Part shown: positions 1 through 57,186 of the stretch, one piece after another
Layout: each line of letters begins with the position of its first letter
Position numbering within the stretch: the first letter of the stretch is position 1
Virus record (IMG/VR): IMGVR_UViG_3300044970_001263
Location: 1-57,186 of that record
Source of the DNA: a virus
Reading direction: 5' to 3' (one strand)
DNA: 57,186 nt
Position numbers and translations under genes: made by a program
Notes under the pieces: model-generated
Database searches by the model: none
The model's input: the letters and a program-made list of their open reading frames with translations, nothing else
Told to the model about the DNA's origin: nothing

Positions 1-47
1 GCGCCCGACGCGCTTATTTGTGCCACCTTGTACCACTTCCTACCACT

Positions 48-67
48 ATATACCCTAAACCCTAACA
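48..67 (-). promoter_or_regulatory. Class A element 1 (junction)
   Basis: Matches the class A core exactly. On the minus strand it points across the circle junction towards 57059. No convincing gene follows before the next class A copy at 57001. A 26-codon GTG ORF (57015-57095 in the right-hand copy) is the only candidate. Confidence 0.6.
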
Positions 68-552: not shown

Positions 553-556
553 TACC

Positions 557-576
557 ATATACCCTAAACCCTAACA
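557..576 (-). promoter_or_regulatory. Class A element 2
   Basis: The class A core is TGTTAGGGTYTAGGGTATAT on the minus strand. It carries two TTAGGG-like hexamers 7 bp apart and an AT-rich TATAT end resembling a -10 box. Every copy lies on the coding side just upstream of a minus-strand leader. Promoter function is inferred from this placement. This copy serves the 350-514 gene. Confidence 0.75.
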
Positions 577-593
577 TACCGCCTGTCAAGCCC

Positions 594-1027: not shown

Positions 1028-1031
1028 TATC

Positions 1032-1051
1032 ATATACCCTAAACCCTAACA
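1032..1051 (-). promoter_or_regulatory. Class A element 3
   Basis: Exact core. Serves the 695-991 gene. No class B partner at 27 bp. Confidence 0.75.
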
Positions 1052-1093
1052 TACCCGCCAGCCCCGCTATTGTCTGGCTCGTGCGTGATCTAC

Positions 1094-1177: not shown

Positions 1178-1193
1178 TCCAATAGATAAAAGC

Positions 1194-1227
1194 AAGAGGA
1201 GCCAACCCCGTCGGGCTGGCTCCTCTT
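1194..1227 (-). terminator. Terminator of the 1230-1420 unit
   Basis: A perfect 11-bp stem (AAGAGGAGCCA and its complement) with a GC-rich 12-base loop. On the minus strand it is followed by TGCTTTTATC, a modest T-tract, so it should end transcription from class A element 5. Confidence 0.75.
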
Positions 1228-1420
1228 GATCGGGCTGATTCTGGCTCCCCCGTCGGGATAACCCTCCTCGCCGCCCTACGACTCCCAGACTTACAGCGTC
1301 TGCCCTAGTCGCCATCGCGTTGCCGTGCCTCTCTTCATCCCGCAGTTATGGTCGCGGCTGACTGATCGCTCGTCTAACAGCCTCACCATCGGTGGAGAGT
1401 TCCTAGGATCTCTCCTCCTA
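1228..1420 (-). ncRNA. Candidate structured RNA between promoter-like element and terminator
   Basis: About 190 bases lie between class A element 5 and a strong terminator, with no AGGAGG before any start codon. The only frame is 32 codons (ATG GTG AGG...) without a ribosome site. The transcript contains nested helices: CGACT pairs with AGTCG, and inside it CAGAC pairs with GTCTG around GCTGTAA. It is not a tRNA because there is no T-arm and no U before the presumed anticodon. Either a phage regulatory RNA or a decayed gene. Confidence 0.4.
1394..1415 (-). promoter_or_regulatory. 5' hairpin of the 1230-1420 unit
   Basis: GGAGAG/CTCTCC stem with a 10-base loop. The GGAGGAGAG here is part of the stem, not a normally spaced ribosome site. 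Confidence 0.5.
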
Positions 1421-1422
1421 AC

Positions 1423-1442
1423 ATATACCCTAGATCCTAACA
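1423..1442 (-). promoter_or_regulatory. Class A element 5
   Basis: Core with GATCTAGGG. Heads the candidate RNA unit at 1228-1420. Confidence 0.7.
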
Positions 1443-1463
1443 GACCTAGTGTATCTGCTGGTT

Positions 1464-1485: not shown

Positions 1486-1493
1486 TTCCTACT

Positions 1494-1513
1494 ATATACC
1501 CTAGATCCTAACA
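1494..1513 (-). promoter_or_regulatory. Class A element 6
   Basis: In tandem with class A element 5, 71 bp away, giving a double promoter-like arrangement ahead of the candidate RNA. Confidence 0.7.
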
Positions 1514-1521
1514 GACCACTA

Positions 1522-1582: not shown

Positions 1583-1602
1583 TGTGTTAGCATCTAGGGT
1601 CG
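1583..1602 (+). repeat. Inverted class B element (i)
   Basis: A class B body in the opposite orientation (TGTGTTAGCATCTAGGGTCG on the plus strand). Together with B6 it brackets palindrome 3. It abuts the terminator hairpin of the 1632-1904 gene. Confidence 0.65.
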
Positions 1603-1923: not shown

Positions 1924-1941
1924 TGAGGGGTGTTTCCCTCA
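1924..1941 (-). promoter_or_regulatory. 5' leader hairpin of the 1632-1904 gene
   Basis: TGAGGG/CCCTCA stem directly after class A element 7. It is a different stem sequence from the copies at 536 and 1011 with the same pairing and place. Confidence 0.6.
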
Positions 1942-1943
1942 CC

Positions 1944-1963
1944 ATATACCCTAAACCCTAACA
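1944..1963 (-). promoter_or_regulatory. Class A element 7
   Basis: Exact core. Serves the 1632-1904 gene. Confidence 0.75.
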
Positions 1964-1971
1964 GACCTATC

Positions 1972-1991
1972 TGACCCTAGATCCTAACACA
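1972..1991 (-). repeat. Class B element 7
   Basis: Offset 27 bp from class A element 7. Confidence 0.75.
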
Positions 1992-2007
1992 CCGCTGAAA
2001 TACAAAC

Positions 2008-2041: not shown

Positions 2042-2061
2042 CGTGTTAGATTGTAGGGTCG
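2042..2061 (+). repeat. Inverted class B element (ii)
   Basis: Diverged inverted copy (CGTGTTAGATTGTAGGGTCG). A partial inverted class A word (TTCAGGGTATT) lies just before it at about 2025-2035. Confidence 0.55.
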
Positions 2062-2285: not shown

Positions 2286-2302
2286 TGAGGGAGCGACCCT
2301 CA
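2286..2302 (-). promoter_or_regulatory. 5' leader hairpin of the 2091-2252 gene
   Basis: TGAGGG/CCCTCA stem with a 5-base loop. Confidence 0.6.
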
Positions 2303-2304
2303 CC

Positions 2305-2324
2305 ATATACCCTGAACCCTAACA
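2305..2324 (-). promoter_or_regulatory. Class A element 8
   Basis: Variant with GGTTCAGGGTATAT. Serves the 2091-2252 gene. Confidence 0.75.
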
Positions 2325-2332
2325 TAGCAACC

Positions 2333-2352
2333 TGACCCTAGATCCTAACACA
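2333..2352 (-). repeat. Class B element 8
   Basis: Offset 27 bp from class A element 8. Confidence 0.75.
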
Positions 2353-2389
2353 CCAAAAAATAGAAATAAACAAATAAATCTAAGAGGTC

Positions 2390-2822: not shown

Positions 2823-2839
2823 TGAGGGTATCTCCCTCA
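2823..2839 (-). promoter_or_regulatory. 5' leader hairpin of the 2465-2803 gene
   Basis: TGAGGG/CCCTCA stem, AGATA loop. Confidence 0.6.
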
Positions 2840-2841
2840 CC

Positions 2842-2861
2842 ATATACCCTGAATCCTAACA
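2842..2861 (-). promoter_or_regulatory. Class A element 9
   Basis: Variant GTTAGGATTCAGGGTATAT. Serves the 2465-2803 gene. Confidence 0.75.
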
Positions 2862-2869
2862 GACCTGCC

Positions 2870-2889
2870 TGACCCTAGAACCTAACACA
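2870..2889 (-). repeat. Class B element 10
   Basis: Offset 27 bp from class A element 9. Confidence 0.75.
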
Positions 2890-2906
2890 TCGCATAAATG
2901 GAAAAA

Positions 2907-2947: not shown

Positions 2948-3187
2948 TCAGGCGACCTTCTTGGCGAGGAGCCTCGTGGCTCCAAAATCCCACCAGCCGT
3001 CGCCTCGTGCTTGATCGTTCACCAGCAGCCGCCCTGCGATAATGAGAGCCTTGCTCTTGTATTCACCAGCAGCCGCTGCCGTTGCGATTCTGAGCACCTG
3101 CTCTGATGGAGCCTGATTCGTGAGAGCCCTGCCGTGTCGTGCGCTCTTCCCGAACCCAGCCCATCGCTTCATTCCCCAGACCTTCAT
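2948..3187 (-). CDS. Small basic protein (79 aa)
   Basis: Starts MKVWGMKRWAGFG after AGGAGG with 6-base spacing. The N-terminal 25 residues are basic and Trp-rich. An alanine-rich helix follows (residues 30-55), then a WWDFG segment. No family recognised. Single-gene cassette behind class A element 10. Confidence 0.7.
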   Translation of the reverse strand: MKVWGMKRWAGFGKSARHGRALTNQAPSEQVLRIATAAAAGEYKSKALIIAGRLLVNDQARGDGWWDFGATRLLAKKVA

Positions 3188-3226: not shown

Positions 3227-3230
3227 TACC

Positions 3231-3250
3231 TTATACCCTGAATCCTAACA
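3231..3250 (-). promoter_or_regulatory. Class A element 10
   Basis: Ends GGGTATAA instead of GGGTATAT. Serves the 2948-3187 gene. Confidence 0.75.
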
Positions 3251-3258
3251 GAGCGATC

Positions 3259-3278
3259 TGACCCTAGAACCTAACACA
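3259..3278 (-). repeat. Class B element 11
   Basis: Offset 27 bp from class A element 10. Confidence 0.75.
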
Positions 3279-3296
3279 CCTCCCAGAACCCAGCCC

Positions 3297-3316
3297 TGAC
3301 CCTAGAACCTAACACA
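3297..3316 (-). repeat. Class B element 12
   Basis: Second copy, 38 bp upstream of B11. Confidence 0.75.
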
Positions 3317-3332
3317 CCGAATAAACAAAAAA

Positions 3333-3372: not shown

Positions 3373-3558
3373 TCAGATCTTGCGATAGTGATCCCGAAGG
3401 ATCTCGTCTACCTGATCCGCGATGAAGTAGACCACCACCAGAACCCCTAGACCTGTGAACCCTCCGATAATCCCGCCTGCGATACCTTGTAGCGTGTATC
3501 CTGCTGCTGCTCCTGCTACCAGAGAGCCTACCATCAGGAGCGTATCCTTCGTGCTCAT
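3373..3558 (-). CDS. Small membrane protein (61 aa), paralogue of 52510-52707
   Basis: MSTKDTLLMVGSLVAGAAAG, with two glycine-rich hydrophobic segments (about residues 7-26 and 28-47) and a charged tail (DQVDEILRDHY). Its start, GLG turn and VD-x2-L-x2-HY tail match the 65-residue protein at 52510-52707, so the two are paralogues on the two sides of the junction. The fold suggests a small holin-like or superinfection-type membrane protein, but the role is unknown. Confidence 0.75.
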   Translation of the reverse strand: MSTKDTLLMVGSLVAGAAAGYTLQGIAGGIIGGFTGLGVLVVVYFIADQVDEILRDHYRKI

Positions 3559-3600: not shown

Positions 3601-3604
3601 TACC

Positions 3605-3624
3605 CTATACCCTGAACCCTAACA
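3605..3624 (-). promoter_or_regulatory. Class A element 11
   Basis: GTTAGGGTTCAGGGTATAG form. Serves the 3373-3558 gene and is the last class A copy before the divergent region. Confidence 0.75.
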
Positions 3625-3632
3625 GAGCAGGC

Positions 3633-3652
3633 TGACCCTAGAACCTAACACA
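3633..3652 (-). repeat. Class B element 13
   Basis: Offset 27 bp from class A element 11. Confidence 0.75.
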
Positions 3653-3672
3653 CCGAAAAAGAGCAAAAAAAA

Positions 3673-3709
3673 AGAGAGACCAGAGCAGCCCCGCCGCTCT
3701 GGTCTCTCT
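3673..3709 (-). terminator. Strong intrinsic terminator after the sigma-like gene
   Basis: A 14-bp AGAGAGACCAGAGC stem with a 9-base loop, followed on the minus strand by nine T. It isolates the 3735-4382 gene from the class A cassettes. Confidence 0.9.
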
Positions 3710-3734
3710 CTGGCTGATCTCTCAGCCTCAGCCG

Positions 3735-4382
3735 TTAGTCTCGGCTGCTGTGAGGATCCTTACCCTCGGTGCGCTTCATTGCGCGGCTGACCGCCATATG
3801 AATCGCTTCCACGCTGAAGATCTCGCCCTGCTCAGCGAGCAGAGCCTGAATCTTTTTCGCGTAGCCATAATGCTTGCCACCTACCTGCTGAAGCAGGCTC
3901 AGCACGCGCTGATCATTCAGCGCGCCGCGCTCAGCGTTAGCGGCTCCCTGAGCCGCCTTATCGGATCCGTGAGCCTGAGCCGCTGCCTGAACGCGAGCCG
4001 CTGAAACCTGCTCAGCGAGCGTACCCTCAGCGATCCAACGCTCAGCCTGAGCGCGCTCAGCCGCGCTCAGCCCTGAGATAAATGAGCCGCGCTCATCAGC
4101 GATAGTCTCGCCGATTGTGAGCCCATCCTCTGAGCCTACTTTCGCGCTGAGATACGCGAAAGAAATCTCCTGCTGAACGCCCCCGAAGGAGCCGCGCTCT
4201 GCTCTAAGAGCCGCACGCGCTGCCTTGATAGCAGCAGCAGGATCCAGAGCGGGATTCTCCACAATCAGGAGAGCCGCCTCTTGGATCAGATCCTCTTGCG
4301 AGGCTGAGCCATTCAGCCCCCCGAAATATGAAGCAGCCTCAGCCTTGAGGCTCTTGTAAATGGAACCGAAATCCTGAGCCAT
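3735..4382 (-). CDS. Possible divergent sigma factor / transcription factor (215 aa)
   Basis: Three faint sigma-70-like signals are visible: SQEDLIQEAALLIVE (residues 28-42, like region 2 DLIQEG), ISFAYLSAKVGSEDGLTIGE (73-92, like the SLDxPVGEDxxxxLGD segment before region 3.2), and a C-terminal helix pair ending SVEAIHMAVSRAMKRTEG (190-207, like the region 4 SxExVRQIExRALxKLR helix). The middle is Ala/Glu/Arg-rich. It is the promoter-proximal minus gene and the only left-arm gene without a class A element. Its leader instead shows a TATGCT box near 4470. I infer that it may read the class A promoters. A structural or DNA-packaging role cannot be excluded. Confidence 0.45.
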   Translation of the reverse strand: MAQDFGSIYKSLKAEAASYFGGLNGSASQEDLIQEAALLIVENPALDPAAAIKAARAALRAERGSFGGVQQEISFAYLSAKVGSEDGLTIGETIADERGSFISGLSAAERAQAERWIAEGTLAEQVSAARVQAAAQAHGSDKAAQGAANAERGALNDQRVLSLLQQVGGKHYGYAKKIQALLAEQGEIFSVEAIHMAVSRAMKRTEGKDPHSSRD

Positions 4383-4734
4383 TCTCAGAATCTCCTCTCT
4401 CCCCTATCAGAGCGGCGGGGAGCCGCATCAGAGAGGGGATCCCTCTCCGATAAGAGAAGCATACCACAAAAGCAGAGAGCGCAACTCTGCGAATCCCGCA
4501 ACAGCCCACGAGGGGAGACCTGCGGAATCCGCAAGAATCAGCCAGAATCCTGCGATATCCGCAGAATGCGCCCCCCCTCCGCTACGCTCCACAGCCAGCG
4601 CGGGGGACCCTATTTAGTACCTAGAGGAAATATACACAGAATCCCAAATATTATATAAGAAGAAACTTATACTGTAACACACCACATGTCTTTGCAAGAC
4701 CGTGCGCAAAGACGCAAAAATAAAAAAACGCCAA

Positions 4735-38019: not shown

Positions 38020-38372
38020 TAGTCGGTGAACCCTAGCCACGATTGCTCGTTGCGGCTCACAAAGACTGGCATACACCCCTTATCGCTTGCGGCGTATGCC
38101 CCAGCGATGTTGAAGTCAAAAAACTCCACAGCCTCAAGGTAGAAGTCGCGGTCGCTCAGATCGTCCATTGGGAACGACTCCTTCGCGCTGACCTCAAACT
38201 CTTGCTGGAGCGCCTCAATAATCTTGTCTCGGTCGTACACCGCAACTGGCTTGATGCCCTGTGGCGTGAAGTGCGAGCCGTAGCCGATGAATGCGTAGTC
38301 ATGCTCGCGCATAACTACTGCGCCATCAAACTCCTCGCTGTACATTGTGTCGTGCTTAATCTCTGGAGTCAT
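38019..38372 (-). CDS. Hypothetical protein (117 aa)
   Basis: Soluble alpha/beta protein (MREHDYAFIGYGSHFTPQGIKPVAVYDRDKIIEAL). No motif recognised. Overlaps both neighbours by a few bases within the minus-strand operon. Confidence 0.65.
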   Translation of the reverse strand: MTPEIKHDTMYSEEFDGAVVMREHDYAFIGYGSHFTPQGIKPVAVYDRDKIIEALQQEFEVSAKESFPMDDLSDRDFYLEAVEFFDFNIAGAYAASDKGCMPVFVSRNEQSWLGFTD

Positions 38373-38830
38373 GCTTCACCTCGCTTCTTATACCGTGGAG
38401 CCTGATCGTCACCGCCATAGAGATCCTCAATGGAGATGTTCAGAATCTCCAGCAGCGCAGGGATCATGTTGGAACGAGGAGTCGTTCGTCCATGCTCCCA
38501 GAGACTGACTGCTGCCTGCTTGATACCAAGCGCATTAGCCAGTTGCTGCTGCGATACATTCGCCGCCTTACGGTAGCGTCGGATGTTATTACCGATTGTA
38601 CTCGCCGTTTGAGATACGTCAAGCGAGCGGACACGGAAGCGTGGCTGCTCGTACGTCTTGACCTGATCCGCATTGACGACGACTGGTGAATCTGATCCCT
38701 CAATCCGAACCACATAGTAGTCCAGCGTGGCTCCATCGGCAGTACCCACACGGATACGCTCCTTGAGCACCTCGCCACGGATTGAGACGATTGCACCTCC
38801 TTTAAACGAGAAATCTACATTGTCGGACAT
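38369..38830 (-). CDS. XRE-family transcription regulator (153 aa)
   Basis: The C-terminal half (residues 80-140) is a clear HTH-XRE domain: IGNNIRRYRKAANVSQQQLANALGIKQAAVSLWEHGRTTP. The N-terminal 75 residues form an unrelated beta-rich domain (IVSIRGEVLKERIRVGTADG). It is the only obvious repressor-like protein here and a candidate binder of the palindromes or the class A/B elements. Confidence 0.8.
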   Translation of the reverse strand: MSDNVDFSFKGGAIVSIRGEVLKERIRVGTADGATLDYYVVRIEGSDSPVVVNADQVKTYEQPRFRVRSLDVSQTASTIGNNIRRYRKAANVSQQQLANALGIKQAAVSLWEHGRTTPRSNMIPALLEILNISIEDLYGGDDQAPRYKKRGEA

Positions 38831-47413: not shown

Positions 47414-49573
47414 TCATTCTCCGATTATCCCACGCATCGTGAGTTTGCGCAAGAGGCTCGCCATCTTGACTGGCAACTCCGACGGATCGGCGCAGTCAAT
47501 AAACTCTGGGTACATCTTGCGGTTGTCGTCGTCAGCCCCATAAGTCCCGATGCCTACACCGATCACGATGCCGCCCTCTTTGCGGATTGACTCCACGAGA
47601 TCCTTGACATTCTCAGCGACCGCGCCATCCGTGAACTGAACCACGATGCGCTTCTTAGCATCAACCGCCTTGAGCCGCTCCCACGCCACAGCCAGACCTT
47701 CAGCGGCTGGCGTACCGCCACCACCCCAAGTCCACATATTGGTGAGAGCCTCGTGCGTCAGCGGATCGCTGAACTTCTTGACGATGCCAACCCGCCAGTC
47801 GGAGAATGCGTGCACCTCGTGCGGGATGCTGGAGCGCGAGAGCGCAGCCGACATCAACGCCGATGCTTGCAAGGCGTAGTAGAGCGGCGGGATAATCCCA
47901 CGCCGACCATACATTTCCTTACGAGCAGCATCCAGATCCAGTTTGCTCTTGTGCCCATTGGCGATCCAGTCCTGCGCTAGTCGCATTACTGAACCTTCGT
48001 GCTGATTCAGCGACTCTGCGAAGTCCTTGAGTTGCGTTGTGTGAGCCGCACCCTCCGTCATTGAACCGCTGAGATCCACCGACAGAATGAATGCGCTGCC
48101 ACCGCTGCGACCAGTATCTGGCTCGCGGAAAATATTCATCTTACCAAGTGCAGCCTGTGACGCACGGCGTACATCAAGCCGACCAGTCCGCTCAAACGAG
48201 CGATGCTTACGCCCCGCCTTTGTCTGAGAGAATGTCCGCATCTGCAGAGCCAACGCATTTGCATAAGCACCGACCTCAGCCACCATATTTGCAGCCGCTG
48301 CCTTGTCCTGCTTGAGCACTTCCTCTGATGGCGCGTAGTACTGGTTGCGATTGACTGGTACGACATTGACAGACGCTCCGTCATAGCCGACCTTGCCGCT
48401 GCCGATGGATACCTTGACACGACCATACTCGTCGCCGAGATTCTCAAAGTCCAAGTCCAACTTATTCAGCGGACTGCTTCCACGATTCTGAGTCGGAGTC
48501 AGATTAGTCTGCGGCGCATAGGTGGACTGCTCCACATTGTCGCTCCACAGCGTTGCCTCTGGCTTGAGGGCATCCAACTTCTTGATGAGGCTACGAGCAC
48601 GGCGGCGGATTGAGTCGCTGGTTGCGCCACCCACCACCTTGTCGTTCTTGCCATCAGAGTTGATTTCCCTGCGTGAGTCGCTAACCTGCGTCCCATCTCC
48701 CATACGCTGCATTGCCTCTCGCTCGTGGCGACGCTCATCCGCATCGTAGGTCGTGCTGTCGGTCTCCTTGATTTGGGCTGTGCTTGAATCGCCGCCCGAC
48801 GCTGAGCCTCGTGCAGACCCCCCATCTTGAGCATCCTGATTAGACGCGCTAGGAGCCTCGTTGCCGCTCTTAGGGTCACCAGACCCTACTCCCTGACCCT
48901 GCGTGCCTCCTCGTGGCTCCTGCCCCCCTGTACGAGGCATCTCTGGGGCTGGGGACGGCTGTGCTGCAGCCTTTGCCTTGCGCCCACGGCTGGCGATCTG
49001 GTCGGCTACCTCATCAAAGAGTGGGAACACCCGCTCTACGATTGGCAGCAACTCCTCCGTTGTCTTTGCAGCCCGAGCCGCATCACGCAGCCCAGACTCG
49101 CGGAACTTCTTTGCCAACTCCCGCGCTCGCGGCTTGAGAATCTGTGAGTCGTATTCATATCCTGCTACCTCTAGATACAGCGACTTGATTGCCTGAATGA
49201 TCCACGCTTCTCCCTGAACCTGAGGGATCGTCTGATCTACAAGGTTGCGCTGGAACTGCACGCGCAGACCACGCTTCTTGTGGAATGACTTGCGCTCCAT
49301 ACGCCCATCCTCAAGAGAGTTTAGAATCATCATAGTGCCTTCGTCCAAGTGCCGAGCCGCAGTTGCCGAAGTGCTCGTGATATGCAGAGCCTCGTGCGCT
49401 GCTAGATCCTGAGCATACGGCGACCCGACTGGCAGACTGACCACGCGCTGAGGAATGTGAGTGTTGGCTCCGTGAGCGATGTCACGGATGACAACTGGAT
49501 CCCCACTATTCCCAGCGAATGCGTCAATGTACGATGCCAACTGAGAGCGGTTGAAGCGGTACTTCTTAGACAT
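47414..49573 (-). CDS. VWA-domain protein, CobT/MoxR-partner type (719 aa)
   Basis: Start MSKKYRFNRSQLASYID after GGAGGAGG. An HEALH motif at 60-64 resembles a zinc site. A low-complexity Gly/Ser/Asp/Gln linker (about 195-330) is followed by a von Willebrand A domain with MIDAS ILSVDLSGSMTEG (about 494-506), then TWGGGGTP and VQFTDGAVAENVK. The HExxH-linker-VWA order is that of CobT-like partners of MoxR ATPases. Paired with 49566-50558, it may remodel or activate protein complexes, such as the virion or host enzymes. Confidence 0.8.
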   Translation of the reverse strand: MSKKYRFNRSQLASYIDAFAGNSGDPVVIRDIAHGANTHIPQRVVSLPVGSPYAQDLAAHEALHITSTSATAARHLDEGTMMILNSLEDGRMERKSFHKKRGLRVQFQRNLVDQTIPQVQGEAWIIQAIKSLYLEVAGYEYDSQILKPRARELAKKFRESGLRDAARAAKTTEELLPIVERVFPLFDEVADQIASRGRKAKAAAQPSPAPEMPRTGGQEPRGGTQGQGVGSGDPKSGNEAPSASNQDAQDGGSARGSASGGDSSTAQIKETDSTTYDADERRHEREAMQRMGDGTQVSDSRREINSDGKNDKVVGGATSDSIRRRARSLIKKLDALKPEATLWSDNVEQSTYAPQTNLTPTQNRGSSPLNKLDLDFENLGDEYGRVKVSIGSGKVGYDGASVNVVPVNRNQYYAPSEEVLKQDKAAAANMVAEVGAYANALALQMRTFSQTKAGRKHRSFERTGRLDVRRASQAALGKMNIFREPDTGRSGGSAFILSVDLSGSMTEGAAHTTQLKDFAESLNQHEGSVMRLAQDWIANGHKSKLDLDAARKEMYGRRGIIPPLYYALQASALMSAALSRSSIPHEVHAFSDWRVGIVKKFSDPLTHEALTNMWTWGGGGTPAAEGLAVAWERLKAVDAKKRIVVQFTDGAVAENVKDLVESIRKEGGIVIGVGIGTYGADDDNRKMYPEFIDCADPSELPVKMASLLRKLTMRGIIGE

Positions 49574-50600: not shown

Positions 50601-50607
50601 TCACAAC

Positions 50608-50627
50608 CTATACCCTGAAACCTAACA
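50608..50627 (-). promoter_or_regulatory. Class A element 12
   Basis: Diverged copy (TGTTAGGTTTCAGGGTATAG). Serves the MoxR-VWA operon. Confidence 0.7.
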
Positions 50628-50633
50628 GACCTG

Positions 50634-50905
50634 ATTTCCATTTCCTTTGTCCTTCCATTTACTAGCGGCTGGTTTGTGGGGGGTGCACTCTTACTACAAA
50701 GTCCCCACCGACCAATCTTGAGGCTAATGAACCAAAGGTTCGCCCCAGCAGAACAGGTAGTTCGGGGTGTCTGCCACCTCATCCCCTAGCGATAGATCTT
50801 TGATGGCTACCTTTCACCGAGAGCGGCGCAACTGGCTTATGTACACTCCACCAGTCACTAATGCTCAGGGTTACCACGAGTCGCCAGACCCATCGTCCCT
50901 TCCAC
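50634..50905 (-). ncRNA. Candidate structured RNA after class A element 13
   Basis: No gene fits these 270 bases. A ribosome-like GGAAGGG precedes only an 11-codon frame (50858-50893). The transcript has strong nested pairing: CTGGC/GCCAG; TGAGG/CCTCA enclosing CCCCGAAC/GTTC..GGGG and GAACC-TTT-GGTTC; and GTGGGG/CCCCCAC. This looks like a multi-helix RNA with a three-way junction. No tRNA signatures. An attenuated leader for the MoxR operon is an alternative. Confidence 0.45.
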
Positions 50906-50906
50906 T

Positions 50907-50926
50907 ATATACCCTAGATCCTAACA
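50907..50926 (-). promoter_or_regulatory. Class A element 13
   Basis: GATCTAGGG core. Heads the candidate RNA. Confidence 0.7.
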
Positions 50927-50944
50927 TAGCATCTTTGGTACACA

Positions 50945-50964
50945 GGATACCCTAAACCCTAACA
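50945..50964 (-). promoter_or_regulatory. Hybrid class A/B element
   Basis: GTTAGGGTTTAGGGTATCC, intermediate between classes. It lies 38 bp from class A element 13 and 27 bp from B14, making a triple site. Confidence 0.65.
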
Positions 50965-50972
50965 CACCATAC

Positions 50973-50992
50973 TGACCCTAGATTCTAACACA
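50973..50992 (-). repeat. Class B element 14
   Basis: Exact 27-bp offset from the hybrid element. Followed by an A+T-rich stretch to 51030. Confidence 0.75.
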
Positions 50993-51031
50993 CCAACCAT
51001 TTGTTATAAAATAAACAAATGGTAAATAAAT

Positions 51032-51229
51032 CTAAACCTTCAATCCGTACCGACGCAGATCGCGTTTGAGATTCTGCACCGCACGATTATCGCTTGGCGT
51101 GAACGATGAGAACACCTTCGCACCATTCGGGGAGACCCACGATAGATGCGTGTTCTTTCGCTGCTCAACTCGCCAGCCCTGCGAAACCGCGATGTCAAAT
51201 AAATCTTGGTAAACCTTCGGGACTCTCAT
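51032..51229 (-). CDS. HicA-like protein (65 aa)
   Basis: MRVPKVYQDLFDIAVSQGWRVEQRKNTHLSWVSP, with TPSDNRAVQNLKRDLRRYGL, gives the small dsRBD-like fold of HicA mRNA interferases, including the conserved His of KNTHLSW. No HicB partner adjoins it, so it is either an orphan or a structural relative. ATGA overlap with the upstream gene. Confidence 0.7.
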   Translation of the reverse strand: MRVPKVYQDLFDIAVSQGWRVEQRKNTHLSWVSPNGAKVFSSFTPSDNRAVQNLKRDLRRYGLKV

Positions 51230-51366
51230 CTCAGAATGCTCCAAACAATAATCCCCAAAGTAATCAGCGCGCAGACTGCGATGGTCGCATCCTGCCGCTC
51301 TCGTGTCTTACGAGCCTCCTTCACATAATATGACTCAATGTTGCGTACCTTCTTGCGTGTCCTCAT
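51226..51366 (-). CDS. Small single-helix membrane protein (46 aa)
   Basis: Basic N-terminal half (MRTRKKVRNIESYYVKEAR) and a C-terminal membrane helix (TIAVCALITLGIIVWSIL). GGAGG 6 bases upstream. Confidence 0.7.
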   Translation of the reverse strand: MRTRKKVRNIESYYVKEARKTRERQDATIAVCALITLGIIVWSILR

Positions 51367-51725
51367 TCCACACCTCCTTGCTCAATGTCCAAATAGCGGG
51401 ACTTCTTGCCCACAACAAACTCCAGTTGCGTTAGCAGCCGCTTCGCCTCGTCCAGTTTGAGACGGATCGGCATCAAGTCATCAGCCAGATCACGACCTTC
51501 TGGGCTTGAGACCCAGATCGTCACGAGCGCATCCTGACCTAGTTCGCTCTGCTCATCAAAGTCTGCGTCCACCCATAGAGAGATCTGACCGACGATGCCG
51601 ACGAACGGATCGCTGTAGACAGGAACCTCCTGCCCATAGTCAAACACATTCTTGTCGTTCTCCTGTCGCTCAATCGTTGCGTGAACCGCATCCTGAATCA
51701 CCAGCGGGAAATCTTTCGCGTTCAT
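51363..51725 (-). CDS. Hypothetical protein (120 aa)
   Basis: ATG at 51725 follows GGAGG by 6 bases. MNAKDFPLVIQDAVHATIERQENDKN, with acidic beta-rich QISLWVDADFDEQSELG and a helical C-terminus. ATGA overlap downstream. Confidence 0.65.
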   Translation of the reverse strand: MNAKDFPLVIQDAVHATIERQENDKNVFDYGQEVPVYSDPFVGIVGQISLWVDADFDEQSELGQDALVTIWVSSPEGRDLADDLMPIRLKLDEAKRLLTQLEFVVGKKSRYLDIEQGGVE

Positions 51726-51727
51726 AC

Positions 51728-52510
51728 TCAACCTCCGATGCTCATAAAGCCTTCGTCATTCCAAAGGCGCATTCCGTTGTCGTAATATTCCTTACTGATC
51801 ACTCGCTTAGGGTCGTCCTCCCAGAATGGATCAACCTCAATAGTCTCACCTTCTGACTCAACTTCCCAGAAGCCTTCGTCTGTGCATTCTCCGTTGATGA
51901 AAGTATTCTCTCCGATGAAGCCCATCCCCATCTCTGCAAACTTGATATGCACGATCAGGTCAGGATACTTCGCCGATAGTTTTTCTAGGATACGCATCGG
52001 TGGAGACCACGCCGTATCAAAGTTGATAGACACAGCGCGGTCGTACTGGTTGTAGCCAGAGACGGATACATCATCCCCGCTAACGCCCCACTTCGTGCCC
52101 CAGTTTGCGATATTCCAGTTCCACCAGAATAGTGGGTGCTCCGACACCTTGATTCCCAAGTGTTCTGGGCAACGCTCAACAGGAGAGCCGATCTCGCTGG
52201 CAAACGATCCGTCAATCTTTGCGTTATCCTTCAGCGGTGGCTTGCCATTGACTAGCCACGCTCCATTAGGAGCCTCGCCCACATACTCAGCCTTGCAGTC
52301 GCACCCTACATAAGAGTGCTGCGACGGCTCGCCCCGATAGATGCGCGCATCCTCTGGGTCGCCAATCGGCGGTGGCACAATCTTGGCGAAGTCAAAGTCA
52401 GAGTGCTCCGACTTGATCTCGCTAAGAATCTGCTTCAGTCTCTCCTCCGCAGACTCAGCCTTGTCGCTCTCAGCCCTGAGCGTAATAGTATTGCCGCACC
52501 AGTTAGGCAT
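51728..52510 (-). CDS. YubB/DUF1281-like ferredoxin-fold protein (260 aa)
   Basis: Opens MPNWCGNTITLRAESDKAES, the signature of the plasmid/phage YubB (Api92-like) family. It also carries WWNWNIANWGTKWGVSGDDV and an NFDTAWSPPMRILEKLSAKYPDL segment, both conserved there. Function unknown. Coupled by one base to the membrane protein upstream. Confidence 0.8.
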   Translation of the reverse strand: MPNWCGNTITLRAESDKAESAEERLKQILSEIKSEHSDFDFAKIVPPPIGDPEDARIYRGEPSQHSYVGCDCKAEYVGEAPNGAWLVNGKPPLKDNAKIDGSFASEIGSPVERCPEHLGIKVSEHPLFWWNWNIANWGTKWGVSGDDVSVSGYNQYDRAVSINFDTAWSPPMRILEKLSAKYPDLIVHIKFAEMGMGFIGENTFINGECTDEGFWEVESEGETIEVDPFWEDDPKRVISKEYYDNGMRLWNDEGFMSIGG

Positions 52511-52707
52511 TAGAACCTCCCCTTCTTGTTGTAATGATTGCTAAGCGTCTGATCAACCTTGTCGCCGACCAGTAGGATCACACCAAGCAGACCAAGACCA
52601 GACAACGCCCCGACGATCACGCCGAGAGAGTTGTTGCCGTTCAGCCCTGCGATGAATCCACCTCCGAACATAAACCCGAATGCTACTAGCGTATCCTTCG
52701 TATCCAT
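52510..52707 (-). CDS. Small membrane protein (65 aa), paralogue of 3373-3558
   Basis: MDTKDTLVAFGFMFGGGFIAG, two hydrophobic helices around a GLNGNNS turn and a VDQTLSNHYNKKG tail. First gene of the operon behind class A element 14. Confidence 0.75.
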   Translation of the reverse strand: MDTKDTLVAFGFMFGGGFIAGLNGNNSLGVIVGALSGLGLLGVILLVGDKVDQTLSNHYNKKGRF

Positions 52708-52729
52708 CTCAACCTCCTTCTCTACTTGA

Positions 52730-52746
52730 TGAGGGAACTTCCCTCA
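52730..52746 (-). promoter_or_regulatory. 5' leader hairpin of the 52510-52707 operon
   Basis: A perfect 8-bp stem, TGAGGGAA/TTCCCTCA, with a single-base spacer. In RNA the inner pairs would open to a small loop. Confidence 0.6.
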
Positions 52747-52748
52747 TT

Positions 52749-52768
52749 ATATACCCTAGATCCTAACA
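52749..52768 (-). promoter_or_regulatory. Class A element 14
   Basis: GATCTAGGG core. Serves the operon 52707 to 51032. Confidence 0.75.
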
Positions 52769-52773
52769 GACCA

Positions 52774-53184
52774 CTATTCCCAAACATATTCCAAGTCAGG
52801 AGATTCATCCCAACCGAACTTAGAATAGTACTCAGGATTCTTACGCAGCAGATTGCTCCGATGCGATGCGTGGAAGTCCTCGCGTCCCAACCACTTTGGA
52901 ACTACGATAGCCGTCTTGTAGTTTCGGTACGCCATAATCTTGGCGAAGCAAGTGTCCTTGTATCCTCGCTTGATCCACTCAGTACAAATCACCATCCCAT
53001 AGATCGCCAGAGCGTTCTCGTAGCCGCGCCACATCTTTGTGGCGGGATGGTTCACCCACCCCTTTGTCTCGCCAGCCAACGCTTTCAGCAGTTGTAAAAC
53101 TTCTACGCGCTGCTTACCAAGTCGTTGGCGGTCAAGAACTTGCGCCGACTTCTCAAAGTCGTTGTACGGCAGGAAAGTCTGCAT
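52774..53184 (-). CDS. Pyrimidine-dimer DNA glycosylase-like protein (136 aa)
   Basis: MQTFLPYNDFEKSAQVLDRQRLGKQRVEVLQLLKAL, with GWVNHPATKMWRGYENALAIYGMVICTEWIKRGYKD, follows the MSMEG_6728/T4 DenV-related family (nHPaxxMWxGYxxAL, EWxxRGYxD). It would start repair of UV dimers. It lies in the operon of class A element 15. Confidence 0.8.
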   Translation of the reverse strand: MQTFLPYNDFEKSAQVLDRQRLGKQRVEVLQLLKALAGETKGWVNHPATKMWRGYENALAIYGMVICTEWIKRGYKDTCFAKIMAYRNYKTAIVVPKWLGREDFHASHRSNLLRKNPEYYSKFGWDESPDLEYVWE

Positions 53185-53600
53185 TAGTCCCACCACCAGA
53201 CTACTTGGTCGCCACGAATCTCAAACTCGTCCGCTCCAAGATTCGCACCTCGTAGCGCAGCAAGAGTCAGCGTCTTTGAGTCTCCGACAGGCGTAGAGGC
53301 ACACAGACCCTCAACGCTAAGTCGTGCGTCCGTGCGTCCTTGACCGACAACATACCCGATGAAGTGAACATCTAGTCCCTGCTCCATCAGTTTGCCAGCC
53401 TCAATGAGAAGCATCGGCAGACCGATAAAGTTATTCCATCGTGTAATATCTGCCAACTCAGGAGCAGCCTCAATCGCACCGATCAACTCGCCGACCGACA
53501 CATTTGAGAACCTTCGTAGCCCACCGCTCCAGTCGCCATCAAAGTTCCCGACCAGCGCATCCTCAATACGAGAGACCGCCAGATCCTTATCCTCAGACAT
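53184..53600 (-). CDS. Hypothetical protein (138 aa)
   Basis: MSEDKDLAVSRIEDALVGNFDG after GAGGAGG. Helical first half, beta-rich second half ending VVWWWD. TAATG overlap with the glycosylase. Confidence 0.6.
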   Translation of the reverse strand: MSEDKDLAVSRIEDALVGNFDGDWSGGLRRFSNVSVGELIGAIEAAPELADITRWNNFIGLPMLLIEAGKLMEQGLDVHFIGYVVGQGRTDARLSVEGLCASTPVGDSKTLTLAALRGANLGADEFEIRGDQVVWWWD

Positions 53601-53802
53601 TATCCACCTCCTCATCTAAATCCTCAAACCCAGAGACCAGAGCCTCCCCGACAATCTGTCGTGGGTCAGCATCGTAAACCACAGGGACGGCTCGGTCAAT
53701 AACCTTGTCGTCCTCCTGAATCACGATTACATCCAGCCCCTCAATATCGGTTGTCGCATCAGCGACTAGACCACCACGAACCTGAATCACTACTACTGGC
53801 AT
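53593..53802 (-). CDS. Small acidic protein (69 aa)
   Basis: MPVVVIQVRGGLVADATTD after GGAAGGAGGG. Very acidic (EDLDEEVDNV). First gene behind class A element 15. The leader has no hairpin. Confidence 0.65.
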   Translation of the reverse strand: MPVVVIQVRGGLVADATTDIEGLDVIVIQEDDKVIDRAVPVVYDADPRQIVGEALVSGFEDLDEEVDNV

Positions 53803-53821
53803 ACTTCCCTCCTTCCCTACT

Positions 53822-53841
53822 ATATACCCTAGAACCTAACA
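53822..53841 (-). promoter_or_regulatory. Class A element 15
   Basis: GTTCTAGGGTATAT form. Only about 20 bases separate it from the ATG at 53802, so the leader is very short. Confidence 0.75.
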
Positions 53842-53845
53842 TACC

Positions 53846-54175
53846 TTATTGGTGCTGCTCTGGCAGACAAGCCGCGCAGTACGGAACACCTATATCGGTA
53901 TTCAGTTGCTTAGACGCTGGGTCGTACCAAATAATATCGTCCTCAACCACAATGCCGTCGCACTCTGAGCAGTTCTCTACATCGTCAAACTTCTCAGCCC
54001 TGCGATCCTCGCAGCCCCGACAATAAACCAGCACCACGCCAGACCAGTTCTTGTTGCTGTAAAACCACTCGCCGTTGTTATCATTGGCTTGTAGCGACTC
54101 GCCGCATTGGTCGCACTTTGTTGGCTCCTCGTCCATCAAAATCTTTCTATTCATCTGATCACTCATCGCTGCCAT
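53846..54175 (-). CDS. Zinc-ribbon protein (109 aa)
   Basis: CDQCGES, CRGCED, CSECDG and CAAC give four CxxC pairs (eight cysteines), so probably two zinc ribbons. ATG at 54175 is 5 bases after GAGGAGG, overlapping the upstream stop (TGATG). Confidence 0.7.
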   Translation of the reverse strand: MAAMSDQMNRKILMDEEPTKCDQCGESLQANDNNGEWFYSNKNWSGVVLVYCRGCEDRRAEKFDDVENCSECDGIVVEDDIIWYDPASKQLNTDIGVPYCAACLPEQHQ

Positions 54176-54378
54176 CAGTCCTCCTCGTAGCCGTCAAACC
54201 ACGCGCCGTACTTTGCCGTGTGTGCCTTACCCGCTACGCTCTGCGTCGTGCTGCTGCTTGTGTCTGGGTCGGAGCACCATCGCTGAACCTGTTCTAGCGT
54301 CTTGCCCCTTGCCAGAACCCGCGTAGGCTCGTCGCTCAGATACATCCGAACCACCTTGTACTTCTTGCCGTCGCTCAT
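54175..54378 (-). CDS. Small hypothetical protein (67 aa)
   Basis: MSDGKKYKVVRMYLSDEPTRVLARGKTLEQVQRWCSDPDTSSSTT: a KVVRMYxSDEP-x5-RGLTLEEAQxHCxDPDTSSxT pattern widespread in actinophages. Function unknown. Behind class A element 16. Confidence 0.8.
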   Translation of the reverse strand: MSDGKKYKVVRMYLSDEPTRVLARGKTLEQVQRWCSDPDTSSSTTQSVAGKAHTAKYGAWFDGYEED

Positions 54379-54394
54379 AGCCACCTCCTTCACT

Positions 54395-54414
54395 ATATAC
54401 CCTAGACCCTAACA
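54395..54414 (-). promoter_or_regulatory. Class A element 16
   Basis: Overlaps the last codons of the next gene upstream: GTT AGG GTC TAG encodes its V-R-V-stop. Confidence 0.75.
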
Positions 54415-54767
54415 GACCGCTCTACGCTCTTGACCGATCCACAACGATGGCATCGGAAAGTCTTGCCGTCCCACTTGTCTGGTTCTGGCTCAACCTCCAC
54501 GCCTCCTGCGTCAGTCGTCCCGAATCCGTCCGCGTTCACATCATTACCGCACTCGCAGACAAGGAAGTCGCCGTCGTACCTGATCTCGTGCTCCTGATGG
54601 TCGTAGGCTCGTCCCGCGTGAACCGCGCTGATCTCCTCCTCCCACCAGTCGCCGATCTCCATCTCTCTGGCGATCTCCTCAGCCTTCCGCATTGCTTCCG
54701 CTGCGGTCTTGGCTTCCACTCTGATCTCAACATCCGCTACCTTGCGAACCTCAACCTCAAAGATCAT
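54402..54767 (-). CDS. Acidic protein with zinc ribbon (121 aa)
   Basis: MIFEVEVRKVADVEIRVEAKTAAEAMRKAEEIA is an Arc/SSB-like alpha/beta start. CECGND and CHRCGS form a zinc ribbon. Its C-terminus RSVRV is encoded by class A element 16. Confidence 0.75.
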   Translation of the reverse strand: MIFEVEVRKVADVEIRVEAKTAAEAMRKAEEIAREMEIGDWWEEEISAVHAGRAYDHQEHEIRYDGDFLVCECGNDVNADGFGTTDAGGVEVEPEPDKWDGKTFRCHRCGSVKSVERSVRV

Positions 54768-55039
54768 TACTGAACCTCCTCGTCAATGAATCCGTCCAGT
54801 CGGAACTGATCAACGATCACCCCCGCTGGCACTTCCGTGCCGTATACCCGATGCGAGACACCCTCTGGCATCTCAATGCGCTCGTCGCTGTCTCCGTTGC
54901 GTACCGCCTCAATCGCCGCCTGTGCCACCGCGATCATAGATCGTGGCGGTGCGGGATAGAGATTGCTGGTCATATGCCACTCCAACGCGACATCCTCGCT
55001 TGCTACCTCGCGCATCCCCATCAGTCCTGTGTATCCCAT
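54767..55039 (-). CDS. Small hypothetical protein (90 aa)
   Basis: MGYTGLMGMREVASEDVALEWHMTSNLYPAPPRSMIAVAQAAIEAV. A leader GGAGGTACTGAT almost identical to that of 55729-55998. Cap-like VPAGVIVDQFRLDGFIDEE tail. Unknown family. Confidence 0.7.
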   Translation of the reverse strand: MGYTGLMGMREVASEDVALEWHMTSNLYPAPPRSMIAVAQAAIEAVRNGDSDERIEMPEGVSHRVYGTEVPAGVIVDQFRLDGFIDEEVQ

Positions 55040-55058
55040 ATCAGTACCTCCTTCCACT

Positions 55059-55078
55059 ATATACCCTAGAACCTAACA
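55059..55078 (-). promoter_or_regulatory. Class A element 17
   Basis: GTTCTAGGG form. Serves 55039 to 54402. Confidence 0.75.
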
Positions 55079-55081
55079 TAC

Positions 55082-55387
55082 CTATTCTAGATACCACTCA
55101 ACCTCAGCGAGATCGCCGTCGTAGAGCATCTGCTCAACCGCAGCGAGATCCATCCCTCGCACCACTTGCGCGAACGCCGTGTCGCAGTCCAAGCAGTAGA
55201 GTTCCTCAGCCGTAGTCTGGTCAGGGAATAGATCCTCGTAGAAGTCGCTCAGCCAGAACGCCCGACCACCATCCTCAAAAGGTTTCAGGTTTGCCAGCAC
55301 CTTCGCCGTGATGCTGATGCCACGAGGGTAGTCCGCTTCCTTTGCCTCGTCGCACTTGTGTCTGTAATACTTATTCTCTCCTGCCAT
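55082..55387 (-). CDS. Small hypothetical protein (101 aa)
   Basis: MAGENKYYRHKCDEAKEADYPRG, with an ELYCLDCDTAFAQV segment that contains one CxxC. Acidic C-terminus (DGDLAEVEWYLE). The CLDC word recurs in 55427-55687. Single-gene unit. Confidence 0.7.
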   Translation of the reverse strand: MAGENKYYRHKCDEAKEADYPRGISITAKVLANLKPFEDGGRAFWLSDFYEDLFPDQTTAEELYCLDCDTAFAQVVRGMDLAAVEQMLYDGDLAEVEWYLE

Positions 55388-55419
55388 ATAGCACCTCCTT
55401 CTTGCTATGCCTTCCTACT

Positions 55420-55439
55420 ATATACCCTAAACCCTAACA
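55420..55439 (-). promoter_or_regulatory. Class A element 18
   Basis: Encodes V-R-V-stop of the 55427-55687 gene, as class A element 16 does for its upstream gene. Confidence 0.75.
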
Positions 55440-55687
55440 TACCGCAAGATATTCTGCGCTGTGTGTGCCACAAACTTCTCGTGCTCCCCGCACTCGCACG
55501 GAGCGCAGTCCAAGCAGTAGAAACTCGTTGCCTCAGCAGCGTTATCCTCATTGACCACGATAAAGATATTCTTGGGGTGATCCGAATCCACCCGCACGCC
55601 TCTATCGCTCACCCAGAATCCAGCCACCACCTCGTCGGGGTAGTAGATCAGCGTGTCGCACTTGCTACAAGTCCTTGCCTCGTACAT
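55427..55687 (-). CDS. Zinc-ribbon protein (86 aa)
   Basis: MYEARTCSKCDTLIYYPDEVVAGFWVSDRG: CSKC and CLDCAPCEC form a ribbon. The start is set by GGAAGGAGGG. It ends within class A element 18. Confidence 0.75.
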   Translation of the reverse strand: MYEARTCSKCDTLIYYPDEVVAGFWVSDRGVRVDSDHPKNIFIVVNEDNAAEATSFYCLDCAPCECGEHEKFVAHTAQNILRYVRV

Positions 55688-55705
55688 TGTTCCCTCCTTC
55701 CTACT

Positions 55706-55725
55706 ATATACCCTAGACCCTAACA
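55706..55725 (-). promoter_or_regulatory. Class A element 19
   Basis: GTCTAGGG core. Leader of about 20 bases to the 55687 ATG. Confidence 0.75.
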
Positions 55726-55728
55726 TAC

Positions 55729-55998
55729 CTACTTGTTGGCAGGGAATCGCTCCACGAGCCAGTCGTATGCCTTCTTAGCGTCCTCGTCCCCTGCTGCCAT
55801 AGCGTTGCCTAGATGCCCTGCGATATTCACGATAGATCCGATCAGAGCACGAGCGTTGTCGCGTTGCTCACGCTCCACCACGCTCACAATGTTATCCCCA
55901 AAGAGAGCCGCCATCGTCGCGTATCCCTGCTTGTCGGGAGTCAGGTCAATGAATCCCTCGTTGCGTTCCTTGATTGCTGCGTCCTTCATAGCACCCAT
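55729..55998 (-). CDS. Small helical protein (89 aa)
   Basis: MGAMKDAAIKERNEGFIDLTPDKQGYATMAALFGD, with ALIGSIVNIAGHLGNAMAAGDEDAKKAYDWLVERF. A four-helix-like pattern without motifs. Single-gene unit. Confidence 0.7.
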   Translation of the reverse strand: MGAMKDAAIKERNEGFIDLTPDKQGYATMAALFGDNIVSVVEREQRDNARALIGSIVNIAGHLGNAMAAGDEDAKKAYDWLVERFPANK

Positions 55999-56017
55999 AT
56001 CAGCACCTCCTTCTACT

Positions 56018-56037
56018 CTATACCCTAAACCCTAACA
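56018..56037 (-). promoter_or_regulatory. Class A element 20
   Basis: Core ending GGGTATAG. Serves 55729-55998. The region before it (56041-56075) holds a CGGGGGAG/CTCCCCCG hairpin that probably terminates the upstream unit. Confidence 0.75.
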
Positions 56038-56041
56038 TAGC

Positions 56042-56072
56042 GGTCGGGGGAGCCAGTCGCCCGACTCCCCCG
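56042..56072 (-). terminator. Hairpin terminator after the 56079-56444 gene
   Basis: TCGGGGGAG pairs with CTCCCCCGA around a 13-base loop. No T-run. Confidence 0.55.
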
Positions 56073-56078
56073 ATACCC

Positions 56079-56444
56079 CTAAATATAATCGCTCAACGCT
56101 ACTACCTTCTCCATAGTCTCACCCCACGCGCAGCGGTAGTGCTTCACTCGTAGATCGCTCCACCCCTTACGCCACTCCACATATGGTCGGTTCTCCTGAT
56201 CCTGCGGGTCAATCCCACGACCACACACATAGCAGTCTCGTGGCTCAACCTTGTAGGCATCAAGGTGCGCGATCCCACACTTCCAAGTGCGAGTCCTAGC
56301 CCACGCCCGACGAAAATCGTCAAGGGTATCCGCACCCTCATACGCCATCCACCGCTTGCTGATGTGCTCACGCCCATCAGGGAGCGTGGTTCTAATCACA
56401 CCCCAATGCTCTGGCAGCGAAGTATTCCCCTTGTAGTATCCCAT
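56079..56444 (-). CDS. Hypothetical zinc-binding protein (121 aa)
   Basis: MGYYKGNTSLPEHWGVIRTTLPDGREHISKRWMAYEG. CYVCGRGIDP with an earlier C-x-IAH and later HYRC suggests a treble-clef zinc site. Single-gene unit behind class A element 21. Confidence 0.7.
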   Translation of the reverse strand: MGYYKGNTSLPEHWGVIRTTLPDGREHISKRWMAYEGADTLDDFRRAWARTRTWKCGIAHLDAYKVEPRDCYVCGRGIDPQDQENRPYVEWRKGWSDLRVKHYRCAWGETMEKVVALSDYI

Positions 56445-56464
56445 ACCCTACCCCCTACTCTATC

Positions 56465-56484
56465 GGGATCAGATTGTCTGACCC
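56465..56484 (-). promoter_or_regulatory. 5' leader hairpin of the 56079-56444 gene
   Basis: GGGTCAGA/TCTGATCCC with one bulge and a 3-base loop. Confidence 0.55.
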
Positions 56485-56489
56485 TCACC

Positions 56490-56509
56490 ATATACCCTAG
56501 ACCCTAACA
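56490..56509 (-). promoter_or_regulatory. Class A element 21
   Basis: GTCTAGGG core. Serves 56079-56444. Confidence 0.75.
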
Positions 56510-56514
56510 TACCC

Positions 56515-56691
56515 CTATGGCAGCAGAGTCTGATACTCCTTTGGGCACTCCTTGTCGTACCCATTGCGCGCTCCGATCCAAGTAAGATCCTCGTGCTGAG
56601 CGAATAGTCGGGTGAACTGCTTAGTCCACCCCTTCTCGCACGCCTCGTCAATCTCCTTCTGAATCTGAACCAGTCGCTCGTCAATGCTCAT
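56515..56691 (-). CDS. Small hypothetical protein (58 aa)
   Basis: MSIDERLVQIQKEIDEACEKGWTKQFTRLF after GGAGG. A charged helical N-terminus, then LTWIGARNGYDKECPKEY. Complete but short. Its stop abuts class A element 21. Confidence 0.7.
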   Translation of the reverse strand: MSIDERLVQIQKEIDEACEKGWTKQFTRLFAQHEDLTWIGARNGYDKECPKEYQTLLP

Positions 56692-56708
56692 ATGCTCCTC
56701 CTTCCAAC

Positions 56709-56728
56709 ATATACCCTAAATCCTAACA
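56709..56728 (-). promoter_or_regulatory. Class A element 22
   Basis: GATTTAGGG core. Serves 56515-56691. Confidence 0.75.
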
Positions 56729-56810
56729 TACCTATTTGCTTATAAATATTGCGTAAATAATACCCTTATATACCCCTAAAAATCGCCCGAAATACCCTAG
56801 ATATATCAAC

Positions 56811-56984
56811 TCATAGGGGAGTCTGCTTCCCTCTACGAGCCAGTAGTGCCTCCTGCTCCATACGCTTCTGACGAGCCTTCTCCATCAGTTCGTTGTGGAG
56901 TCTAAGCGTACCCTTCCCACTCATTACCATACGGAATGAGCGTGAATCTACCTTCTTGTCTCTATTGCTCTTGTCGTAGTCCAT
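56811..56984 (-). CDS. Small basic helical protein (57 aa)
   Basis: MDYDKSNRDKKVDSRSFRMVMSGKGTLRL after GAGGAGG. Residues 30-57 form a basic helix (NELMEKARQKRMEQEALLARRGK). Possibly nucleic-acid binding. Confidence 0.7.
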   Translation of the reverse strand: MDYDKSNRDKKVDSRSFRMVMSGKGTLRLHNELMEKARQKRMEQEALLARRGKQTPL

Positions 56985-57000
56985 ATCCTACCTCCTCACT

Positions 57001-57020
57001 ATATACCCTAAATCCTAACA
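57001..57020 (-). promoter_or_regulatory. Class A element 23
   Basis: GATTTAGGG core, 16 bases before the 56984 ATG. The stop of the doubtful 57015-57095 frame lies in it. Confidence 0.75.
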
Positions 57021-57095
57021 TAGCAGTCTAGGCATAATCCTAGCGTATAACAAGGCGACGCGCCCGACGCGCTTATTTGTGCCACCTTGTACCAC
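57015..57095 (-). CDS. Doubtful 26-codon ORF across the circle junction
   Basis: GTG start, basic (NKRVGRVALLYARIM), behind class A element 1. The AGGAA ribosome-like word touches the start codon, so spacing is poor. A GC-rich GCGCGTCG repeat in it could instead be an RNA stem. Confidence 0.2.
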   Translation of the reverse strand: MVQGGTNKRVGRVALLYARIMPRLLC

Positions 57096-57186
57096 TTCCT
57101 ACCACTATATACCCTAAACCCTAACATACCGCCCTGTCTGGCGAACATCTGTTCTATTTGGTCTGACCCTAGAACCTAACACGCCT
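57060..57186. repeat. Terminal direct repeat, right copy
   Basis: Second copy of 1-127, including class A element 1 (57107-57126), palindrome 1 (57142-57155) and class B element 1 (57164-57183). Confidence 0.9.

Follow-up and report, generated by a model that had tools for sequence, protein, structure and literature searches.

In the T4 MotA middle promoters, a core element lies directly upstream of a -10-like part and takes the place of the -35 element, and in cluster A mycobacteriophages the L5 stoperators are many copies of one asymmetric, oriented site. Phages phiEco32 and 7-11 are described as encoding a sigma-like protein and using the host polymerase (PMC4331800, PMC8948821). The Start Associated Sequences (SAS) of actinophages and their second upstream element (ESAS) were described in 2011 (PMC3203893); as late as 2024 no reader had been identified for them (PMC11373665). 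In cluster K they stand at the starts of non-structural genes, the ESAS consensus differing between subclusters (PMC3203893; PMC11373665). The gene analysed here, from an uncultured phage, encodes a small protein that probably reads the start signals before dozens of phage genes.

The window (the whole stretch of DNA analysed, a virus record of 57,186 bp) bears a 127-bp direct terminal repeat. The genome is therefore circularly complete, and its left arm (4382 to 1) runs on into a right arm formed by the minus strand from 57.1 to about 50 kb. The reading frame of the sigma-like gene (Table 1) is open, and its translation contains the three segments quoted in an earlier note, DLIQEAALL among them, in the order given there. 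Two further viral contigs encode full-length homologues (83% and 77% amino acid identity) at the corresponding place, divergent from the packaging genes, so the frame is not a chance one. No relative was found in the annotated phage records or bacterial genomes searched.

Two related motifs recur along both arms, almost all on the minus strand: class A, with 25 core matches (0.00 expected), and class B, with 37 (0.05 expected). Class A is a contiguous block of 27 bp, with about 7–8 bp between its two parts. When position 0 (p0) is set at the G of GTTAGG, 23 class A sites share G-5, T-3, T-1, GTTAGG (0–5), T7, AGGGTATA (10–17) and T21 without exception, and position 22 is a purine in all 23. 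Class B has the same core, with TCAG replacing TATA; as a core without the -10 part, it may be bound by something that does not initiate there. Class B lies upstream of class A, with preferred gaps of 26–29, 35–37 and 47–50 bp across types (defined below). In the leftward arm, most transcription units have a class A site at their head, and overlapping downstream genes are without one. Every left-arm coding gene other than the sigma-like gene is preceded by class A, which bears out the view that this gene alone lacks both classes; no class A or B core was found upstream of it in phages of type I, II or III. Where other viral contigs matched the class A pattern in a single copy, the matches were taken as chance. 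Behind one class A site, about 230 nt (window 1180–1445, minus strand) form a non-coding cassette that is conserved in types I, II and III, the class A ahead of it differing in each; tRNA and Rfam searches of the window, this cassette included, gave no match. Antisense sites of class B type were also seen (window 1585–1601 and 2044–2060, plus strand; L063, 10880–12210; L065, 11410–13540). These immediately adjoin, on the 3′ side, the foot of strong G+C hairpins without a U-tract, as if a bound protein stood in for the U-tract (a roadblock terminator); the other terminators in the left arm of the window have T-runs.

Table 1. Coordinates of the sigma-like gene, its candidate control elements and the class A and class B sites in the window
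Feature	Position	Strand	Remarks
Sigma-like gene	3735..4382	-	215 aa, ATG start
Sigma-like protein, N-domain	residues ~1-66		likely sigma-2-like
Sigma-like protein, linker	residues 67-95
Sigma-like protein, C-domain			helical; HTH-like end at residues ~170-205
Intrinsic terminator of sigma-like gene	3667..3711	-	19-pair stem (3711-3671), then T9
Candidate host-read promoter	4650..4678	-	GTTACA-17-TATAAT, about 273 bp upstream of ATG
Operator-like palindrome	4488..4500	.	TGCGGGATTCGCA
Operator-like palindrome	4521..4533	.	TGCGGAATCCGCA
Operator-like palindrome	4551..4563	.	TGCGATATCCGCA
Class A	3602..3628	-	before gene 3373-3558
Class B	3632..3654	-	26 bp upstream of A site 3602..3628
Class A	3228..3254	-	before gene 2948-3187
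Class B	3258..3280	-
Second class B	3296..3318	-
Class A	2839..2865	-	before gene 2465-2803
Class B	2869..2891	-
Class A	2302..2328	-
Class B	2332..2354	-
Class A	1941..1967	-	before gene 1632-1904
Class B	1971..1993	-
Class A	1491..1517	-
Class A	1420..1446	-	before non-coding RNA cassette
Class A	1029..1055	-
Class A	554..580	-	before gene 350-514
Right-arm array, more class A matches	50605..57130	-	contiguous with left arm in circular genome
CI/Cro-type HTH protein	38369..38830	-	candidate repressor of sigma-like gene

The protein resembles ECF (group IV) sigma factors, such as sigH, sigL and sigJ of M. tuberculosis, in its size, in the sigma-2-like signal of its N-domain, in its HTH-like C-terminus and in that the promoter set follows the type of the protein. 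Unlike them, it has neither a family-model match nor a detectable region 4, and its site is a contiguous 27 bp without -35/-10 spacing. By description it is like the sigma-like protein of phiEco32 and 7-11; the difference is that several specificity types occur among the close relatives of the window phage. Class B recalls the L5 stoperators as a many-copied, asymmetric and oriented site, whereas class A sits at the transcript start.

Close relatives were found by a terminase scan, and the syntenic homologues of the sigma-like protein make up at least three specificity types and probably four. In four type II contigs (L029, L031, L032 and L033) the terminases are 93–95% identical, while the syntenic sigma-like homologue is only about 40% identical; where the arm is covered, their arrays have TATGTGAAATGATTTCGGCTAGAGGGT as class A and TATGTGAAATGATTnTGGCTCyG as class B. 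Type III (L036–L038 and L063–L065; terminase 79%) has a sigma-like version of 261–318 aa, 28–33% identical, together with a third motif, in which class A is AAGCCCGTAATG...TTGATAGT or a close variant and the B sites are AAGTGTGTAATG. Type IV is tentatively represented by one contig (L040) with three A sites. The co-occurrence that the earlier note proposed to check was seen: the gene and the motif are both present in every contig covering both, and the gene is there in each of the three type I contigs that have arrays. In six more distant contigs (L046, L048, L050–L052 and L056; terminase ~50%) no sigma-like gene or motif array was detected; many tRNA T-loop-like repeats were seen in these.

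The window was compared gene by gene with an 83-kb contig in which a type I arm and a type II arm are both present. Among genes of at least 100 aa, about 22 are common to the window and both arms, and the sigma-like protein, with 42% identity between types I and II, is the lowest of them; packaging and structural genes are 86–98% identical, and genes common to types I, II and III (e.g. 695–1033 and 2465–2803) are 80–86% identical between I and II. This contig (IMGVR_UViG_3300027608_000021, 83149 bp) has two terminases about 55 kb apart, behind the type I and type II arms, and was probably assembled as a chimera of two phages that occur together; the type II findings have support beyond this contig. 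Also conserved between types is a MoxR-like AAA ATPase (330 aa) beside a VWA-domain protein (736 aa; window 47414–50558, minus strand). Between types I and II the promoter-like motif is replaced throughout the arm, the upstream part and the -10-like part alike. The -10-like half is TATATrGT in type I, TAGAGggT in type II, and TTGATAGT, TGGATAGT or TATA.agT in type III. Since the virions are near-identical and the -10-like part nevertheless differs, a factor that sets both halves, as a sigma factor does, is the simplest account. The upstream elements are GTTAGG in type I and GTnAATG-like in types II and III. Of the seven central residues of an 18-residue C-terminal helix, six are the same in types II and III (NAVRVAV, NRVRVAV), type I having EAIHMAV; in these five sequences the helix residues may track the type of upstream element, which is suggestive only. 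The CI-like HTH protein, the only recognisable HTH regulator, is in contigs of both types 77–78% identical to that of the window and was rejected as the reader of class A because it does not switch with type.

The likeness of the protein to sigma factors was examined by profile and by structure. Pfam, NCBIfam and PHROG gave no match of the protein to a curated sigma family, and Sigma70_r2 had no match in the window genome, though it was found in control genomes. A profile of ten homologues matched a single PDB sequence at E<10, the ECF sigma factor SigJ (E 0.11), and SigW ranked first with the N-domain profile (E 0.51). In hhalign, the N-domain (first ~65 residues) scored 20.5 against eleven ECF sigma factors, nine of them from phage records, and aligned at region 2, the helical part of sigma factors that opens promoters and holds the -10 strand; none of 100 column shuffles of the N-domain reached this value (maximum 12.3), and the whole-profile shuffle test against sigma gave 0/100 for A4 and A5. 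The AlphaFold model of the type I protein is of low confidence (pLDDT 60.7, pTM 0.37). In Foldseek, its top three PDB hits were ECF sigma factors (134–148 columns, E 0.12–1.9), and nearly all its best aligned chains were sigma factors. Its residues 1–66 aligned with sigma-2 of M. tuberculosis sigH over 63 residues at 2.8 Å, with a Z of 6.6 that is within the range arising by chance. The better model of the type II homologue (pLDDT 71.8) had no sigma match among its top hits, and a BFVD fold search gave no significant match, with a few sigma entries far down the list. The C-domain aligned with sigma-4 at the expected helix, but 43 of 100 shuffles scored equally well. A match of residues 148–208 to T. 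thermophilus sigA was discarded, since the aligned residues 259–314 of that protein fall outside region 4. The profile and structure comparison with sigma factors was thus divided, with hhalign and the type I Foldseek search in favour and the family libraries and the type II model against. As for the claim that the quoted segments represent sigma regions 2, 3 and 4, the region 2-like N-domain is supported, whereas region 4, whose HTH in sigma factors contacts the -35 element, does no better than shuffles. Several weak tests converge on an N-domain that is likely sigma-2-like; a full sigma architecture is unproven. The comparative evidence of co-switching is stronger than these tests.

These data also bear on the possibility that the protein, instead of being a sigma factor, activates or represses by sequence-specific binding to the core of A and B, while the host sigma factor reads the -10-like part. 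Such a protein would suit a core that A and B share and that in B comes without the -10 part, B-to-A gaps whose clusters differ by roughly one helical turn, as with bound proteins that interact, antisense sites that adjoin terminator hairpins, and the weak sigma-4 evidence. We consider it unlikely, though well worth keeping in view: the -10-like half switches too among phages whose structural genes are 86–98% identical, where a host sigma factor would keep one -10, and the N-domain resembles sigma-2 and not a repressor. The switching of the -10 part likewise separates these relatives from T4 MotA middle promoters.

The geometry of the sites bears on where transcripts begin. Behind T21, in types I, II and III, comes either a Shine-Dalgarno (SD) sequence, mostly from p22–26 with an ATG at p33–38, or a leader hairpin, most stems of which begin at p22–27. 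In right-arm genes, class A abuts the SD (p22–26). If T21 were position -7, the resulting start at p28 would remove the SDs and most 5′ stems. Either the site is itself transcribed, or transcripts start near p22 and class A is a compact block that spans about -27 to -1. Class A contains no -35/-10 pair at 16–18 bp, the spacing of ECF promoters, and its geometry is unlike that of a normal -35/-10 sigma promoter, so that 'sigma factor' is here to be read as 'sigma-like promoter-specificity factor'. The abutment on the SD in right-arm genes would also suit an RNA or translation element like the cluster K SAS, for which a role in translation has been proposed (PMC3203893), with the protein binding RNA or acting otherwise. 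This seems very doubtful. The stretch from the upstream terminator to the leader contains, in the left arm, only B and A, and the promoter must therefore be there; class A also heads the non-coding cassette and is missing from overlapping downstream genes, and B-type sites are seen in both orientations. SAS/ESAS (cluster K mycobacteriophages and cluster EF Microbacterium phages) and the present sites are alike in having a short ribosome-binding-site motif on many non-structural genes and a second upstream element. SAS is, however, a 13-bp motif of GGGATAGGAGCCC type located 3–9 bp before the start codon, and class A a different 27-bp motif ending at the SD; ESAS contain inverted repeats with SigA-like hexamers, whereas the sites here are non-palindromic; and the window phage has a co-switching candidate reader.

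Another phage or host protein might read class A, the sigma-like gene diverging for an unrelated reason, and three further genes (53184–53615, 53846–54175 and 55082–55387) do fall to 49–58% identity between types I and II. Yet two of the three were not found in type III, the third occurs in one type III phage only and at a higher identity than in type II, no above-cut-off Pfam match among them points to a DNA-binding regulator, the CI-like HTH protein does not co-switch, and no factor of the host could switch from one near-identical phage to another; we regard such a reader as the most improbable. The likeness of class A to a compact promoter block raised the possibility of a T7-type polymerase, but no PF00940 match was found in the genome (control genomes gave none either), nor any polymerase gene among the large ORFs scanned.

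The sigma-like gene is itself set apart by a T9 terminator that proved real, with a 19-pair stem followed by T9. The weakest point of the earlier description is its 'ordinary-looking promoter'. The candidate in Table 1 is the best sigma-70-like match upstream of the gene. Its TATAATATTT block, 234–273 bp upstream, is conserved between phages of types I and II, but the region holds no more matches of this kind than shuffles do. Three palindromes of the form TGCG-N5-CGCA lie nearer the gene than this block. Other phages have different repeats there, and two type II phages (L032 and L062) share theirs with two of type I (L002 and L003). Across seven contigs (L002, L003, L032, L062, L033, L029 and L031) these repeats are exchanged independently of regulator type, like immunity modules. 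A repressor, perhaps the CI-like protein, may use them as an interchangeable operator. Elsewhere in the window, palindromes AGAACAnnTGTTCT, resembling SOS/LexA boxes of Gram-positive type, occur at 83–96, 243–256, 1563–1576, 2008–2021 and 57142–57155 (five found, 0.13 expected); the arms of types II and III have GAACnnnnGTTC in single copies.

That the protein and the motif switch together, and the CI-like HTH gene does not, leads us to favour, at somewhat better than even chances, a small two-domain promoter-specificity factor working like an alternative sigma factor. The protein would be expressed early, from a promoter of its own that has no class A and is read by the host polymerase, and would then recruit the host core RNA polymerase to class A sites. 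Its N-domain may be responsible for the -10-like half of the site and its C-terminal HTH for the upstream element, and a repressor at the operator-like repeats would control a single master gene. A fuller version, improbable when taken whole, has a compact sigma-like factor reading the contiguous block from about -27 to -1 and setting the 5′ end at the ribosome-binding site or leader hairpin. Under this version, the factor would also bind class B, the sites serving, according to their orientation, either as phased activator sites or as roadblock terminators, and specificity would change by replacement of the whole arm, giving near-identical phages with mutually exclusive promoter codes.

A candidate reader thus adjoins the array, which offers an answer to the same kind of puzzle as that of SAS/ESAS, though the sites are not SAS by sequence. 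The close relatives constitute a natural swap, in which structural genes stay near-identical while the protein is exchanged together with some 20 or more promoter-like sites. If the proposed role is true, types I and II would provide promoter systems that are orthogonal and whose partners are known.
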